Shown here one piece after another: positions 24,876 to 63,767 of a DNA stretch of 64,000 nucleotides. Position 1 is the first letter of the stretch. Each line of letters begins with the position of its first letter. The stretch lies in contig OZ020260.1 of the NCBI GenBank assembly GCA_963971285.1, positions 4,250,798 to 4,314,797 of the forward strand, read 5' to 3'. The stretch comes from Astropecten irregularis. Taxonomy: Eukaryota > Echinodermata > Asteroidea > Paxillosida > Astropectinidae. Position numbers and translations under genes: made by a program. The notes under the pieces were generated by a model. That model did not search any database and was not told where the DNA came from. It was given only the letters and a program-made list of their open reading frames with translations.

Positions 24876-25927
24876 TAGACTTGGTCTATGGCCTACCCAA
24901 GTATACGAGATGTAGTTTACAAATTAAATCAAATTTATTTTTTACTATGGAATGGATAATAGTCCCAATATTAACAATGTAACGCTGATACCAACTTGTG
25001 CATGAAATTCTTGTGTTGTAGTTTAATGATATGTGATATCCACAAAAAAAATGCAGTTGCTAGTACCAAACCCTCATCCTGGCAGTTTGAAAGCAGTAGT
25101 CTAGAGGTATTACTCTTTGCGAAATGAGGGGAACAGTACTTGTATTTAAATTGAATCCAGCTCTTTAGCATCCACATTTTCCAGCTGAAAGCTAAACAAA
25201 GGTACTTTACTAGATAAGAAGCCAAGGCCTATTTACAAAATGATACAACCTTTTGTGGCAGATTGAAATTGAAACATGAAAATTGTGCATTAATAGTCTT
25301 TGTACGGACTTGAACCGTGCGGTTCCATGAAATTAGTATAAAATATACAGTTTGTGTTTAGACTGTAGACAATGTTTTTTTCTAATAGCAGTTTTTGTCC
25401 GGTTGACAAGTAAATTAATGTTATTTACGCAGCTGCAGTCTGGTTGAAATGTACATTGAAATGTAATTGTTTGGATACATGTGCAACTATCACTAACTCT
25501 ATGAACTTTGGACATTGATAATTGTTCAAACGCTCGTTTGTTCTAATACATTCACTGCAGTGCTTGAAAGCCATCTGTCCGATATCCCATAATAACATAG
25601 GTTAGACAATAGAGCAATTTGAACGGGTATCTGTAACATCAGTGGAATTGAGACATAATTTCTTTGCATTTTTTTTTTTTTTTGTATACCTTTGGTCAAA
25701 CATAGACCTATGGCATTGCACCAGTTTGGGACGAGATGTGTTGAGGATATTTCCACAAATACACTTGCAATATTGTCTTTTCTGACTCCTTCAACATTGT
25801 TATAATTTCCTTGAGGGCTGGTAGCTTCTTTCTTGTACTGTAGGGCAACACAATTTCCCCTTTGCCAGGGGAGATAATGGACTTCCTGCTGGAACTTTTG
25901 AAGGTTTACTGAGGCATGTAGGGCTCT
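24876..25927. other. POFUT1 5' intron, nothing recognised
   Basis: AT-rich intronic sequence upstream of the POFUT1 coding exons, with no exon-like frame and no clear repeat structure. Confidence 0.35.
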
Positions 25928-26466
25928 GGCTAGGGCTACAGCTAGGGATATGGCTTGGGCTACGGCTACAGCTAGGGCTATGGCTACGGCTCGGGATTGG
26001 GCTATGGCTAGGGATTGGGCTATGGCTATGGCTACGGCTAGGAATATGGCTACGGCTATGGATTGGGCTATGGCTACAGCTAGGGATTTGGCTATGGCTA
26101 CGGCTAGGGATTGGGATACGGCTAGGGATTTGGCTATGTCCAGGGATTGGGCTATGGCTACGGCTATGGCTAGGGATTGGGCTATGGCTAGGGATTTGGC
26201 TATGGCTAGGGATTTGGCTATGGCTTGGACTAGGGCTAGGGCTTCGACTATGGCTACGGCTATGGCTAGGGATTGGGCTATGGCTAGGAATTTGGCTATG
26301 GCTACGGCTATGGCTATGGCTAGGGATTTGGCTATGGCTAGGGATTTGGCTATGGCTAGGGATTTGGATATGGCTAGGGATTTGGCTATGGCTAGGGATT
26401 TGGCTATGGCTAGGAATTTGGCTATGGCTAGGGATTGGGCTATGGCTAGGGCTTGGGCTAGGGCAG
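25928..26466 (+). repeat. GGCTAT/GGCTAGGGATT hexamer-based satellite
   Basis: Over 530 bp of degenerate 6-bp and 18-bp periodicity built from GGCTATGGCTAGGGATTT, GGCTACGGCTAT and similar words. Because the period is a multiple of three, both strands stay open (AMARDL... on plus, SHSQIPS... on minus). These are artefacts of the repeat and not genes. It lies within the POFUT1 5' intron. Confidence 0.9.
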
Positions 26467-26884
26467 GGGTTTTCTATCATGTCCATGACCACCGTGTAAG
26501 TAGCGCAATGGGCAGGGGTACATCTAGGCAATATAAGACCAATCCATTAAGCCCTGCCTCCATTTGTTTTTTGACCAATCACAGCTGTTGTTTGTTGCCG
26601 ACATCTGTTGACTATTATCGGTAGTTCGACATTGACGTTTTTGTGTGTGAAGCATGCTACTGTATAACTCAGTGTGGCTTGGTCTATTGTCTTTCTTGCC
26701 TCCTTGAAGTTTGTACCCTGTTCCAATAACAGAACAGAAATTGATAAGTTTTACATTACCGGTACTTAGTTGAAGTGGGTTTTTGTCGTACAAATGTTTG
26801 TATCGTGTTCTTCGAATTTGACAAAAAAATGCTGACATGGGTCTGGCACAGTATGATAAATAACGTGTAAACATACAAATTGCC

Positions 26885-50918: not shown

Positions 50919-51034
50919 GTAAGTTCAGACTTATGTGCTAGTGAGGTATCCGCTGGTGTAAACTATACCAGCTGGAGGAAATGTTTTCTGGCAATCCGCT
51001 GGTGTGGTATCTAGTACTGAATTATCTGCTGGCG

Positions 51035-51672
51035 AGGTTTCTGCTGGTGAGGTATCTGACGCTGGCGAGGTATTTGCTGGCGAGGTATCTGACGCTGGCG
51101 AGGTATTTGCTGGCGAAGTATCTGACGCTGGCGAGGTATTTGCTGGCGAGGTATCTGACGCAGTTTGGCGAGGTATTTGCTGGTGAGGTATCTGACGCTG
51201 GCGAGGTATTTGCTAGCGAGGTATCTGACACAGTTTGGCGAGGTATTTGCAGCTGAGGTATCTGACGCTGGCGAGGTATTTGCTAGCGAGGTATCTGACG
51301 CTGGCGAGGTATCTGACGCTGGCGAGGTATTTGCTGGTGAGGTATCTGACGCTGGCGAGGTATTTGCTGGTGAGGTATCTGACGCTGGCGAGGTATTTGC
51401 AGGTGAGGTATCTGACGCTGGCGATGTATTTGCTAGCGAGGTATCTGACACAGTTTGGCGAGGTATTTGCAGGTGAGGTATCTGACGCTGGCGAGGTATT
51501 TGCTAGCGAGGTATCTGACGCTGGCGAGGTATCTGACGCTGGCGAGGTATTTGCTGGTGAGGTATCTGACGCTGGCGAGGTATTTGCTGGTGAGGTATCT
51601 GACGCTGGCGAGGTATTTGCTGGTGAGGTATCTGACGCTGGCGAGGTATTTGCTGGTGAGGTATCTGCATGA
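51035..51672 (+). repeat. 33-bp minisatellite
   Basis: About 19 units of GAGGTATCTGACGCTGGCGA followed by GGTATTTGCTGGT, with a few carrying an ACAGTTTGGCG variant. Decayed units extend to about 51900 and reappear at 52725-52755. Since 33 is divisible by three, several frames on both strands are open; they are repeat artefacts. Confidence 0.9.
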
Positions 51673-51915
51673 CGAGATCTGCTGGTGAGGTACCTGTTGA
51701 GGTATCTGTTGACTAAAGCATTGACTGGCGATATTTGCTGGTGCGTTATCTGCTGGTTTGCTTTGTGTTGACTTTAGGTATCTTCTCTGTGATGTATAAC
51801 TGCTACTGTGCTAGTGAGGTATCTCATGGTAGTGTATCTGGTAGTGATTGGGTATCTGGTGGTGAGGCATCTGGTGGTAACTTTTGCTGAGGTATCTGAT
51901 TAGAAGTTTGACGAG

Positions 51916-56919: not shown

Positions 56920-58307
56920 CTAAGCTATCTGAGACAAGTTCTCCACCGATTCGTCGGGCGAGGTATAGGGACACCGGTGACGGATGACGTGTTTAGCCGA
57001 CCTGTCCACGCAGTCGAAGTAGTTGACATTGAGTCTAGCTGCCAGCTTACGGCCGAGCCTCTCCAGTTTGTGTCTCTTGATGGTAGAGGACGTCAGGACC
57101 TGTTCCTCCAAATGAAACCCGTTCAACACGACTCTGTAGTACGTGTCACCACCACCTAGAGATATACGTCGAGAAAAGTGGCTGTTATACATTCGAACCA
57201 GCGATCCCCTAGAATACCGTACCGGGGCTCTACCAACTGAATAATCCATCCATGTTGGTGGTGTCCCCAATAGCCAATTATCTTTGTTCGTTTTGCCAGT
57301 CAGAAGCCTTGAAACCCCTCACATATACTGCTATATCCCAATTAATGATCATTATTTTTGCGACGCAACAGTGAGAAACGTATACTGTCCAACCATTTGA
57401 AAATGGTATAATGAACCCGTTGCCGTTTTTCTACAAAGGAAAATGGACAAACAAACCGTTTACCGATAACAGCTTCTGAAACTGTCAAAATACAATAAGT
57501 AAAAGGTATGCATCATTGCAAAAGTGAAAAACGAAATTCAACAACGAGATCTACGGAGCTCTGGAGGTGCCAACCGACTTGTTGAGTATAGGCATTATTA
57601 TGGGCAAGATGACAACATCCTCAGATAATTTATCACAGGATGATGATATCTTAACATTAAGATGAATGAAGGGGGGGGGGGCTTTGCCCCCACGACCCTC
57701 TGGATCCGCCCCCGTTTAGTTCAAAAAGGTTGATTCCAAGTTTAATTAGTCCATTAGGCCTAACGTTAATTATTCCTGGAGTGTTTCCCATGTTTGGTAT
57801 TTCAATGATTCCTTGAAAGAGACTGCCTACAAAGTTTTGTCATCCTCCTAGGCTAATTAAAGTATGTGATTTGCCTTGCTCACCACTCTTTTGACCGACC
57901 AATCTGATGTAGACATTATGGATGTGACCTCGATACACCAATCTGCTTCCAGTGTGAAACTCGTACTCATTCCTAGCCGTGTCAATAACGAACTTCCGTA
58001 CGTCCGTGTAGACGAAGGTGGCATACAGGCACACCATAAAACCCATGATGAAATAAGTCAGGAACTGATCCAAGGGGTTTTTCATGTAGTAACCCAGTGT
58101 GCTTACGAAAGTCACGAGGAGACATATAGCGGAGATCCAGAGCCACGGGGACCGGAGAGACATCTCGAAATGATCGGGGGAGATCTCCGTGAATGGGTGG
58201 AAGGGATTCTTCTCCAGTTTGGCACGGAAGACCTCCTCGGGCGAATCCCAGAAGTTCAAATTCCACGTGCCGAATATCCCCACGTGTTTCTTCTTAGACA
58301 TACTCAT
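56920..58307 (-). CDS. TMEM249: TMEM249, CatSper channel accessory protein
   Basis: Two coding exons, minus strand: 58307-57884 and 57155-56920, joined in phase 1 to 219 codons plus TAG, near the size of the human protein. TMEM249 was found as a small membrane subunit in the mouse sperm CatSper complex. Seen here: a cytosolic N-terminus, two membrane segments (WLWISAICLLVTFVSTLGYY and FLTYFIMGFMVCLYATFVYT), then a soluble part with YIRLVGQKSGG, YYRVVLNGFHLEEQVL and the family-typical RLGRKLAARLNVNYFDC. An acceptor at 58318-58319 lies just upstream of the ATG, so a further 5' UTR exon is expected; a P element sits 218 bp upstream of the start. The intron contains a SINE. Confidence 0.85.
57170..57390 (-). 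mobile_element. tRNA-derived SINE in the TMEM249 intron
   Basis: CATTCGAACCAGCGATCC, CTCTACCAACTGAATAATCC and CTTTGTTCGTTTTGCCAGTC. It starts about 15 bp upstream of the last exon's acceptor, on the intron side. Confidence 0.7.
57391..57883. other. rest of the TMEM249 intron
   Basis: Non-coding. It contains a G-run with GCTTTGCCCCCACGACCC at about 57671-57712, possibly from an old repeat. Confidence 0.4.
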
Positions 58308-58685
58308 AATGATGATCCTGTAAATTATATTGCTCAAGGGTATATTTGGGAGGATGTAGGCCTATCAGAACAATATAGCCTTAATCGTGGTGCTGACTCA
58401 ACTGGTTTTGGTGTTGGGAGATCGCCGTTAAAATGTATCGATTACTGTTGATGATAATGACTGACGTATGGTACGCGCGGCAAACGTAAACGCGCTCGAA
58501 TGTCTTGGGCGCGGCGTGTCCAGATCATAGATATAGAATTAAATAACTAGATCGGACGCGCGTTCAATACGCGCGTTCTTACTGGGCGCTGCCATTAGTC
58601 ACGTGAATAGGGCCAAATCATTCAAACGCGCTTTTTCTTGACGTGACGATCACTTCATAAGTCAGTGAAAACTTGCAGCAACAAG

Positions 58686-61600
58686 ATGGTGGCGAATTGC
58701 GCTGCCCCTGTGTGTAACAGCCGGAAAAAGAGGAAAGGCCCCGACGGACAGACGCTCAAAAAGCTGACCTATCATGTGTAAGTTATTTAACTTGTATCAT
58801 GCAAAAATCATTTCCAACTTCGACTTTTAATTGAGAAAAAATGTATAGGAAGTGCCAAATGTATACTGTACACATGTACAGTTTTTAGTTAAACTTAGGC
58901 TAAGCGTAAGCTTACATAAATTGATAGGGGGCCTAATGGGCCCACTCCGTAAAACCCGTTTTCACCCCCAGCCTTTATGGTTAGACTCGTAGACTCAATG
59001 ATGGAATTCTCCTTCGGTTGAAAAGCACGATTGACCTGAATTTACATTAGGCCTAATAGGCCTAATAGGCATTCGTCTTTCGGATTCTAATCATCAATCG
59101 CAAAATCCAAAATCAACATTTTCATCTCAGTGATTTAGTACAGGCCTAGTTATACCTTTGTCTGCCTGCAGATTTCCCCGCCGAGACCCCAAGAGACTGA
59201 AAGCGTGGTTGCACAGAATCAAGCGGGTAAATCCCAATGGCAGTAAATGGCAACCAACAAGTCGCGACAGACTCTGCAGCGACCACTTCCCAGCAGATTG
59301 TTTCACAGTGAAATGGGGAAGAAGACAACTTCGTGAGGATGCAGTACCATCCATCTTTGAGGACTATCCGACTCATTTGCAGCCTGTATGTATCAGTATA
59401 TGATTATTGATTTATTAAAATCGCTGTACTCGTAACATTACAGTATATGTACATATATGCTTCTACCAGATTTCATTGTACCATTGTCCTTCGTGTTTCT
59501 TTTTTAATTCTTCGATTAATTTGTACTTTCGTTCATAGAAAAATGAATATTTGATAACCGGAGATCTTCCGACTGTGAAGAGATCACAGGTCAAATCAGT
59601 GTCAAGGAAATCGTGTGCTCAAGTGTCGGTCAACGCCCCCATGCAGACAGATCACTCATATGCCTTGTCTCCAAAGATGAATCTACCATCAACCTTGAAA
59701 GGCCGCATCACTGAGCTAGAAGAAGAAAAGAGACGGCTACAACGCAAATGTCGACAACTGAAGAAGAAGGTATCAACCGTCAAGGACATAGTCCAAAGTC
59801 TGAAGAAGGAACGGCTTGTTCCGAATGACAAAGCTCAGGCATTGGAGTCTGATTTTCCTCATCTGCAACTTGAAATGATTGGGGAGAATGGACATACCTC
59901 ATCCAATGAGTACAGTGAGGAAATGAAGAAGTTTTCCATTTACCTGTATTACTGCTCCCGAAAGGCATACGACTTCGTACGAAAGACGATTGCGCTACCA
60001 AGTCTGCGTACAGTCAGACGATGGTTGGCAACTACGTCCTGTTATCCAGGATTCACACAAGAGGCTTTTGAAGTTCTTCAAGAGAAGCAAGCTTCTTCAA
60101 GCCATGACTTGTTGGTGTGCCTGATGGTGGACGGTATGAGCATCCGGAAGCAAGTGGAATTTGACGGATCACGTTATGTAGGGTAGGCAATATTCATGAG
60201 TTTCAAATTATAGGTGTTCGCCTTCTGCATGCCTTTCCGTATAAAGCAAGGCTAATTCGACTTATCTATCATGTATACTGGCAGGTATGAGGATCTCGGT
60301 TATGGACACATCAGCTGTCGTCCTGCGACGGAATGTATCGTCCTAATGGTCGTAGCAATGAATGGTGACTGGAAACTTCCAATTGGATACTTCCCTGTGG
60401 CAGGAATGTGTGCTGAGACACAGGCCAGACTGGTCACCGAAGCTTTGATTCTCTTATGGGATACTGGTGTAACTGTAGTTTCACTGACTGGTGAGTTTAT
60501 GTAATTATGAAAACGTTCCACCTTTCTATAAAATAATGTATGGAAGGTATTTTGAATTCAAGCAAAAACTGTTTGTTTTTACAGGTGACGGATTAAGTGC
60601 AAATATGGCAGCAGCCGAACTCCTTGGTGTCACCTTGCATCCAGCGCACAACATGAAGACTTGGTTTACACATCCATGCGACCCAGCTTCTAAGATCTGG
60701 TATATACTTGATCCATGTCATATGCTGAAATTAATGCGGAATCTGCTCGCCACTTGGAAAATTTTGCTCGATGGAGAATCCAACTCACTTGGTAGGCACC
60801 CACTTAAAGAATACATCAGAATACAACACTGTGTCAACGACTCCACGGAAAAGTTTCGAAGTTAAAATCATGTACTTATAAGTTATTTGGGTTGGTTTTT
60901 TTTTTTTTTTGGCCGTTTCGTTTTGCATACATGTATACATGTACATGTACTTGGTATGAAATCCCGGTGTTTATGCAGTTTAAGTAGGCCCGATTCCTCG
61001 ATTCAATTAATTTTTTTGCCCATTCGTGCATACAGTGTGCTGGCAGTTTATCGAAAACCTCGACAGAACTCAACAGATAGAAGGATTGAGAGTTGCAAAC
61101 AAACTTCGCACAGCTCACATACAGTGGCAGAAACAAAAAATGAAAGTGTCACTTGCTGCACAGACGATGAGCAATTCCGTCGCAACAGCTATCGAATTCA
61201 TGAGAGATATGGGACAACCAGAATTTCAGAACTGCGATGCAACGGTAACCTTCCTGAAAATGATCGACAGGTGCGTTTTTCAGTTCTTTGTTTTATGCTG
61301 ATGATGCTATTGTTTTGTTATCGTCTTGTTTTATTTTGAAAAATCTACATTACGAGATTGGCGATATATACATTAGATTTATTGAACTTTGCGGTTTTTA
61401 GGTAACAGTACTTTTATTTTGAAACATTTAATCAGGCTGTTTGATATCTGCAACGTCAGGCACCCATTTGCTAAGGGTTTCAAGGCGCCCTTAACACTCC
61501 AGAATGTGTCCTCATGGCAGCCGTTTCTGCAAAGAGCTAGGAACTATTTACTGGAGTTAATGGACAAAGATGGTACTCCATTGTATAAGTCAAGACGGAA

Positions 61601-62722
61601 GACACCAGTTGTCGGTTTCCTGACAGACATTGAGTCAGTCACTGGAATGTTTGCTGACCTGTGTGCGGGCCCACAACCCAAGCTGAGGTAAGTTAATAAT
61701 CAGTCAAGAGATTCCCTTCATGAAACATCTTGTATAGTTGTACACTCGTTTCCTTTTCATCAATGATTCTCTATCTCTTTGTTTATTTTTCAGTTATTTG
61801 CTGACGTACAAGTTCAGCCAGGACCACCTTGAATTGTTTTTCGGCGGCATCAGAGGTAGAGGAGGCTTCAATAATAACCCATCTGTGACACAGTTCAGGT
61901 GAGAATAGATTTGCTTATGTAAAACGCACGCAGCAAAACAAAGAGTGGAAAGTGCGTGTCTGAACATTTTAAATTATTTTATTCGAATCCCGCTCCAGTC
62001 AATTTTTCTTTGTTCACTTTTCAACAAATTTGATTTTATTGTAATTTTATTTCATTAATAGACGAGCTTACAGGCAGCTTCTGAGTTGTCATTTCTGCCC
62101 GACTTCCAACACTAATTCGACCGTCCAAGACAGCACTGGCCTCCTCGCTCTCTCGCAGGATCATCCTGCGTTGACAACCATGCCAGGTGATCCTCAGATT
62201 CTCAGCGAATTTAACTGCAACGTGGTGGCCTACATTGCCGGGTGTGTTATCAGGACGCTGCTGAAATCAAGCAAGTGTACTGAATGCATGGAAGCACTGG
62301 TACAACATCCAGTACGGCATAGCGCCATTCCTGCTCCTGATCTATATCTTATCCATCTCAGGGATAACGGGGGACTCATTTACCCATCTGATGACGCTCT
62401 AGTAGTTTGCAAAACTGCAGAGCAGGTATTCCGCATGTACAACGACGATCAACCATCTCCAATGCCCCAGCTAATGCAAACCATGGAATGTCACACCGTG
62501 CAATTGGTGACAAGCAGCGGTGTTTTCATGTCAATTGATCACGATAATGACGCACCCACTGGTACTGGTGAGACCGGCCATAGAATCCTCCTGATTCGTC
62601 ACATAGCTCACCAATACCTACGGATCAGGTCATTTGATTTTGGAAAGAAAGTTACCGAGCAGCTACAGGGGGACAAGGTTAGAAAAGTGTATTCCAAATT
62701 AGTATTGTTCAAAGGCCAGTGA
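58686..62722 (+). CDS. P-element transposase (THAP9-like), intact
   Basis: Nine exons: 58686-58777, 59172-59385, 59539-60182, 60285-60490, 60585-60791, 61036-61270, 61436-61687, 61794-61898, 62062-62722; all GT-AG, all phases agree, 871 codons plus TGA (human THAP9 is about 900). The enzyme would bind the transposon ends and cut and paste the element. Domains: THAP zinc finger (C5, C10, C66, H69; W43; AVPSIF 88-93), a coiled-coil (about 150-190), RNase H-like core with candidate acidic residues D300 (LMVDGMSIRK), D387 (LTGDGLSANM) and E630 (FSQDHLELFFG), an inserted GTP-binding-type region containing DPCHMLKLMRN, and a GRGGFNNNP motif right after the last acid. The ATG is 69 bp from the subterminal repeat. 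Introns are short; intron 8 holds a SINE fragment (61981-62026). Assignment of D387 is by motif only. Confidence 0.93.
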
Positions 62723-63646
62723 AAACCTGTGTACATGTGAGGTTGGAATTTCAAAGATAGCATTCATAATTATAAAGAAATAGGATTCTAAAATGTGCGA
62801 CACCGTCAATTTTGTATGATAAAGCGATATTTATGACTGCATTAACGTGACGTTAAATTGCTAACATTTTGACAACTTGTCTTATTTTTCGTTCATAGCA
62901 TATTCCATTTTGCGGGCAAATATTATTGATTTCAGTCAATTTGATTTATTGCATTTTTGCTCCAAATATACATGAAATAAAGATACTGTTTAAGGGCAAG
63001 TTTGTAATAAGATTCTCAATATGTAGGACAACGAATGATTGCATTTTTATTACAAGAGGCATCCACAATGAACCTGGCACCCTTTCCCTCAAAACCCAGC
63101 TGACTGTATTATTATATCTATGTGTTCTTCTTCTTGAAGGATGCCTCTCACAAAAATTGCCCGTAAACTGCCTCATTTGCCGGCCGCCATGAATCTATAA
63201 TAAGGAACAGTCCGATATGCCTATGTAATTGTATATGTCATGCATGTTAAATGTCAAGAATTGACAATTGCCTTTCATTCTGTTTCTTTCACCAAACTCT
63301 TTCACAGAAATGAAAAAGGAGGACTTTCCATAATGATTGATTTCAATATGTTTATATGATTTTGTTCATTGATGAAGATGTCGTCTTATCTTCAATTATA
63401 GATAATGCCCAACGAAATGCATTACGGATTGAATTAAAGAGCAGTTTGAAGATAACTTGTGTATATTTATCATCTATTATTAATTTGTAAGCGTCATTAT
63501 GTTTAATGCTCATAGATTTCTTCTCAAGAAACACAACTTTATAGTTTCGTAATCCACGTTTTATTTTGTTCGCTTGGAAAAGACTATTGGTAAACGTTCA
63601 CAGCTGCATTTACAGAGCCAACATGTTTCCAGCTGTCCTTCCGCGT
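62723..63646. other. P element 3' non-coding region
   Basis: About 920 bp between the transposase stop and the right subterminal repeat, AT-rich, with no second gene seen. It presumably contains the polyadenylation site (for example ATGAAATAAAG near 62971). Confidence 0.5.
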
Positions 63647-63767
63647 GGCCCTATTCACGTGACTTTTTAGCGCGTCCATGGACGACAAGAAAACTTTGTG
63701 CACAGTGAATGGCGCGCGCGGACGCGCGTCCAATCTAGTTATTTAATTCTATATCTATGGTCCAGAT

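Follow-up and report, generated by a model that had tools for sequence, protein, structure and literature searches.

P elements are textbook invading transposons, and the locus described here raises the question whether a complete member of this superfamily, possibly one that can still move, resides in a genome outside insects. The element was found in a 64-kb stretch of DNA (henceforth termed the window), which sits in a 15.1-Mb contig of a 475.7-Mb assembly. The original prediction, drawn from the letters of the window, proposed a structurally intact P element that had inserted recently and could be active.

The mitochondrial code and gene order point to an echinoderm host: AAA has to be translated as Asn for COX1 on contig C168 to show the expected residues at conserved positions, and COX1 and COX2 have a nad4L-like frame between them, both features that we take to fit echinoderms. 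Amphioxus had also been considered as host; the GFP family returned no match in this genome, a result of no weight against amphioxus, as the control genomes gave none either. A further COX1-like gene, on contig C131 (32162–33484, L053), has no in-frame TGA, unlike the mitochondrial COX1; this contig is probably bacterial or derived from a symbiont within the assembly. In the window, six of the eight frames submitted to Pfam matched (E 0.001), and animal genes were recognized for TMEM249, a rhodopsin-type receptor, an O-fucosyltransferase and an MTF2-like protein. At 25500–26600 and 51000–51800, both strands contain long frames that encode repeated peptides, probably tandem repeats rather than genes. 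An exon of TMEM249, a CatSper subunit, occupies 57840–58361 on the minus strand, and the P element lies approximately 210 bp upstream of the first Met in the TMEM249 frame. P elements prefer promoter regions, with which this position agrees as a single case.

Borders, gene and predicted transposase

The element spans 58526–63759 of the window, i.e., 5,234 bp (Table 1). P-superfamily elements are recognized at their borders by 8-bp target site duplications and by terminal and subterminal inverted repeats, and all three were found. The predicted exact duplication (GTCCAGAT on either side) and the 38-bp terminal repeats with a single mismatch gave the same values on re-measurement, whereas the subterminal repeats, also correctly predicted, are longer than the 17 bp proposed, with a perfect pairing over 19 bp. 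Within the window, the 19-mer is confined to its two subterminal sites even when up to three mismatches are allowed.

Table 1. Coordinates of the P element in the window and domain boundaries of its predicted protein.
Feature	Position	Strand	Remarks
Left target site duplication, 8 bp	58518..58525		GTCCAGAT
Left terminal inverted repeat, 38 bp	58526..58563	+	1 mismatch vs right repeat
Left subterminal inverted repeat, 19 bp	58597..58615	+	AGTCACGTGAATAGGGCCA; 71 bp from left end
Exon 1	58686..58777	+	start codon, first part of THAP domain
Exon 2	59172..59385	+	remainder of THAP domain; acceptor not cleanly common to relatives
Exon 3	59539..60182	+	linker, HTH, RNase H start with D300; acceptor not resolved in relatives
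Exon 4	60285..60490	+	RNase H
Exon 5	60585..60791	+	D387, GTP-binding domain start
Exon 6	61036..61270	+	GTP-binding domain
Exon 7	61436..61687	+	GTP-binding domain end
Exon 8	61794..61898	+	RNase H C-terminal part, E630
Exon 9	62062..62722	+	C-terminal part, stop codon
AATAAA, possible polyadenylation signal	62976..62981	+	motif only
Right subterminal inverted repeat, 19 bp	63646..63664	-	complement of AGTCACGTGAATAGGGCCA; 95 bp from right end
Right terminal inverted repeat, 38 bp	63722..63759	-	1 mismatch vs left repeat
Right target site duplication, 8 bp	63760..63767		GTCCAGAT
THAP (PF05485)	residues 5-93		Pfam
P-element HTH (PF12017)	residues 189-264		Pfam
RNase H N-terminal part (PF21787)	residues 270-400		Pfam
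GTP-binding insertion (PF21788)	residues 430-551		Pfam
RNase H C-terminal part (PF21789)	residues 622-656		Pfam

Joining the nine predicted exons yields 2,616 nt that encode 871 amino acids and a single terminal stop, with GT–AG borders at all eight introns, in agreement with the THAP-type gene originally proposed. The model gains support from the recurrence of its splice sites in the two full-length copies of a sister subfamily (L031 and L032): each of the eight matching donor positions has GT in one or both of them, and AG is shared by both at six of eight acceptors (exons 4–9); for exon 2 the acceptor is shifted or unclear there, and for exon 3 it was not resolved. Pfam places five domains along the predicted protein in the order of P transposases, namely an N-terminal THAP domain, a P-type HTH and an RNase H domain split by a GTP-binding insertion, as is characteristic of the superfamily. 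The best match among solved structures is the Drosophila P transposase (6p5a, phmmer E 4.4e-29), from which the window protein is distant. In the alignment, the Drosophila catalytic triad D230, D303 and E531 corresponds to D300, D387 and E630 of the window protein, and D339 of the [C/D](2)H motif to D428 (in DPCH); the Drosophila residues are those named in PMC8230255.

The sequence parts that a Drosophila-type mechanism would call for are present. For Drosophila P, PMC7776569 describes binding of inner sites by THAP, GTP-dependent pairing, cleavage and joining 8 bp apart, and for the superfamily GTP use and a staggered cleavage with a 17-nt overhang. By analogy, the window gene, if spliced in vivo as modeled, would give rise to a THAP/RNase H/GTP-binding transposase whose THAP domain would recognize internal sites close to either end, the 19-bp repeats being the likeliest candidates. 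The two ends would then be paired in a GTP-dependent manner and cut at the terminal repeats, and the element would be joined to target strands 8 bp apart, which would account for the 8-bp duplication.

Copies and relatives in the host genome

A search of the host genome for other copies, proposed along with the original prediction, returned at least three further distinct long copies, a sister subfamily and more distant families. At least 41 matches were obtained for the left end (40 of 133 candidates scored) and at least 43 for the right end (40 of 130). The long copy on C28 is 98.7% identical to the window element and retains the open 871-aa frame and intact splice sites, and the outermost part of its left terminal repeat is missing. 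The copy on C15 (98.1% identity) stops short at the right end, carries a 4-bp insertion in exon 5 and has lost the exon 5 acceptor to a deletion. A further copy on C20 is broken at assembly gaps, and its right part also occurs on C19; since the two (L029 and L030, each beside 200-N gaps) are 100% identical over 2,735 bp, they probably represent a single locus that the assembly contains twice and are counted once. This locus is truncated at its right end, beyond which lie filler sequence and a repeat of a 70-bp piece of the element; exon 3 contains 4 inserted bp, and the exon 4 donor is altered. Outside exons, these copies differ from the window element by about 1% (33/2581 for C15, 30/2585 for C28, 11/977 and 12/1616 for the C20/C19 parts). 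Among the matches listed, the window copy alone of the four distinct long copies has both ends and a duplication; in the other three the terminal repeat is incomplete on one side, and in two of those the gene is broken.

The sister subfamily was delineated by setting aside matches to the window's own family (four at the left end plus one partial piece, five at the right end plus three pieces), which left 36 left and 35 right sister ends among the matches listed. Pairing within 12 kb gave at least 26 pairs, with no partner for 10 left ends and 9 right ends. Of these pairs, two represent full-length elements (6.76 and 6.80 kb), and 20 of the 24 others measure 2.0–2.4 kb. Outer flanks were inspected for 20 of the 26 paired elements: exact 8-bp duplications are present in 17 and absent in three, and no shared target-site motif was evident by eye among the relatives' duplications. 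Both full-length copies have the duplication and carry frame shifts in their exons. Comparison of the window gene with these two gave dN of approximately 0.20, dS of approximately 2.0–2.1 and a ratio of approximately 0.1 over 791 and 796 codons in matched stretches devoid of stops, a value far below 1, though rough, because dS approaches saturation and conserved parts are overrepresented in the matched stretches. For two shortened sister elements, one of which contains a stop, the values were 0.20 and 0.24 over 218 and 220 codons. BLAST matches between window and sister DNA fall on exons and on two ends of about 130 bp, one match crossing the short fourth intron. The resemblance is almost limited to exons, splice sites and ends.

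The inner repeat reads ...AATAGGGCCA in the window family and ...AATGAGGC(A/G)A in the sister subfamily, with the same difference at both ends. Such a parallel change is compatible with recognition of the site by the transposase; an alternative route to it is exchange between the ends. The inner repeat lies 72 bp from the end in one full-length sister copy, compared with 98 bp in a shortened copy. Both ends were inspected in three short elements with window-family ends: an exact duplication flanks one of them (421 bp), and the other two are missing outer bases on one side; for a fourth, a single end was inspected. For the shortened relatives with similar ends, mobilization in trans by the window or sister transposase is probable.

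A protein search of the host genome additionally revealed more distant P families with long open frames. One of them (L033–L038, L049–L052) has six copies that are nearly identical to one another (pairwise differences of 1–17 of 2,427 nt) and share an open frame of 809 aa (39% identity); this family appears to be younger than that of the window. The corresponding element measures about 8.8 kb and has terminal repeats that begin CACTGATCTATAC; of two copies with ends read, the one on C14 has an exact duplication (CAATAGTC) and the one on C8 has none. An RNase H profile gave 87 matches in the host genome, a count in which a gene with an intron at that place appears twice. Forty of these 87 P-type RNase H_N matches lie inside a 3.1-Mb stretch of contig C11 (18.99–22.09 Mb; L056–L061, L102), 36 of the 40 on the minus strand. 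At one locus there (L102) two unit copies are about 3.2 kb apart, and among six members read some have altered catalytic residues or broken frames. The stretch could represent either an array of P-derived genes or a region rich in repeats.

Nature of the element and its present activity

Taken together, the ends, the duplication, the domains, the catalytic residues, the 8-bp duplications of relatives and the low dN/dS against the sister subfamily argue for a structurally complete P-superfamily cut-and-paste transposon that inserted in the manner proposed above, a reading to which we assign a probability of about 90%, present activity not being part of that figure. With ends, domains and triad in place and an echinoderm as the likely host, the core of the original prediction, a structurally intact P element outside insects, is borne out. 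A domesticated THAP9-like host gene would likewise show a low dN/dS against the sister subfamily, and such genes are described in a sea cucumber (PMC13228809), yet this interpretation is very improbable given the terminal repeats and exact duplication around the element, three further long copies at other sites, conserved ends and the duplications in 17 of 20 relatives. Domesticated THAP9 is immobile and lacks terminal repeats or further copies, a description from which the window element departs. Still harder to credit is an assembly artefact or foreign contig. The assembly does hold bacterial-type sequence elsewhere (contig C131), and one family copy is divided at assembly gaps (C20), but the element lies in a 15.1-Mb contig next to animal genes, both of its flanks matched at the window only, and related copies occur on many contigs.

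Whether the transposon is active is a separate matter. From its sequence, the chance that the window element can still jump today appears about even. A serious contender, at somewhat below even odds, is an intact-looking immobile copy, of the same identity as the transposon inferred above and differing solely on present activity: a young copy complete by chance, silenced or carrying amino-acid changes that inactivate it, the last good-looking member of a declining lineage. In its favor, no other long copy among those found keeps both ends, divergence outside exons has already reached about 1% between copies, and no constraint is visible between the window element and the C28 copy, because six of the eight codons that differ change the residue. 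The open 871-aa frame, the three catalytic residues, both ends and the exact duplication weigh against it. The window lineage may indeed be dying, as sibling ends are incomplete, genes broken and sister frames shifted. The exact duplication, the small difference between copies and the many duplications in relatives nevertheless argue for fairly recent movement of P elements in this genome. As for the recent insertion claimed for this copy, the duplication and the sibling difference support it indirectly, whereas an empty site did not emerge: joined flanks searched against the host assembly matched only the window's own two flanks.

Comparison with known P elements

According to PMC7776569, the Drosophila melanogaster P element likewise has 8-bp duplications, terminal and subterminal inverted repeats, shortened non-autonomous copies and a THAP-HTH-RNase H transposase with a GTP-binding insertion and a catalytic triad. 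The window element is larger (5.2 versus 2.9 kb), with nine exons instead of four spliced ORFs, imperfect 38-bp instead of perfect 31-bp terminal repeats and 19-bp instead of 11-bp subterminal repeats (same source). Its unequal inner-repeat spacing of 71 and 95 bp recalls, by analogy, the unequal spacing of the 10-bp transposase sites in Drosophila P. In Anopheles gambiae, an insect host unlike that of the window element, several P subfamilies per genome with perfect 8-bp duplications are also found according to PMC1562414, with terminal repeats of 27–31 bp and MITEs or short derivatives that share both ends. Ciona P transposons, judged by the title of a paper cited in PMC7776569, come from an invertebrate deuterostome.

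The novelty attached to the original prediction was overrated. Zebrafish THAP9/Pdre2, a non-insect system, already combines terminal and subterminal repeats, 8-bp duplications, many shortened copies and excision, as described in PMC7776569 and PMC10983969, so that P elements with terminal repeats outside insects are known and the window element adds another. It differs from Pdre2 in its terminal repeats (38 versus 13 bp) and its inner repeats, which in zebrafish are 12 bp long and follow 400-bp spacers (PMC7776569). THAP9-homologous genes are said in PMC10983969 to occur from sea urchins to humans. For echinoderms, no P element with described ends was seen among the papers listed by searches of an open-access library.

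It is a tentative and rather unlikely possibility that several P families in this genome are still jumping, transposition-competent copies included, and that they are perhaps controlled by the C11 stretch, acting as a domesticated or repressor locus. If true, this would establish full transposition competence outside insects, which was not found shown in the literature searched. In the literature considered, non-insect P activity rests on zebrafish THAP9, which excises the zebrafish element and could not transpose it (PMC10983969). A complete element with matching ends, its sister subfamily and a family of younger appearance, all within one echinoderm genome, constitute natural substrates, which allow asking whether full P transposition and its control by the host exist outside insects.
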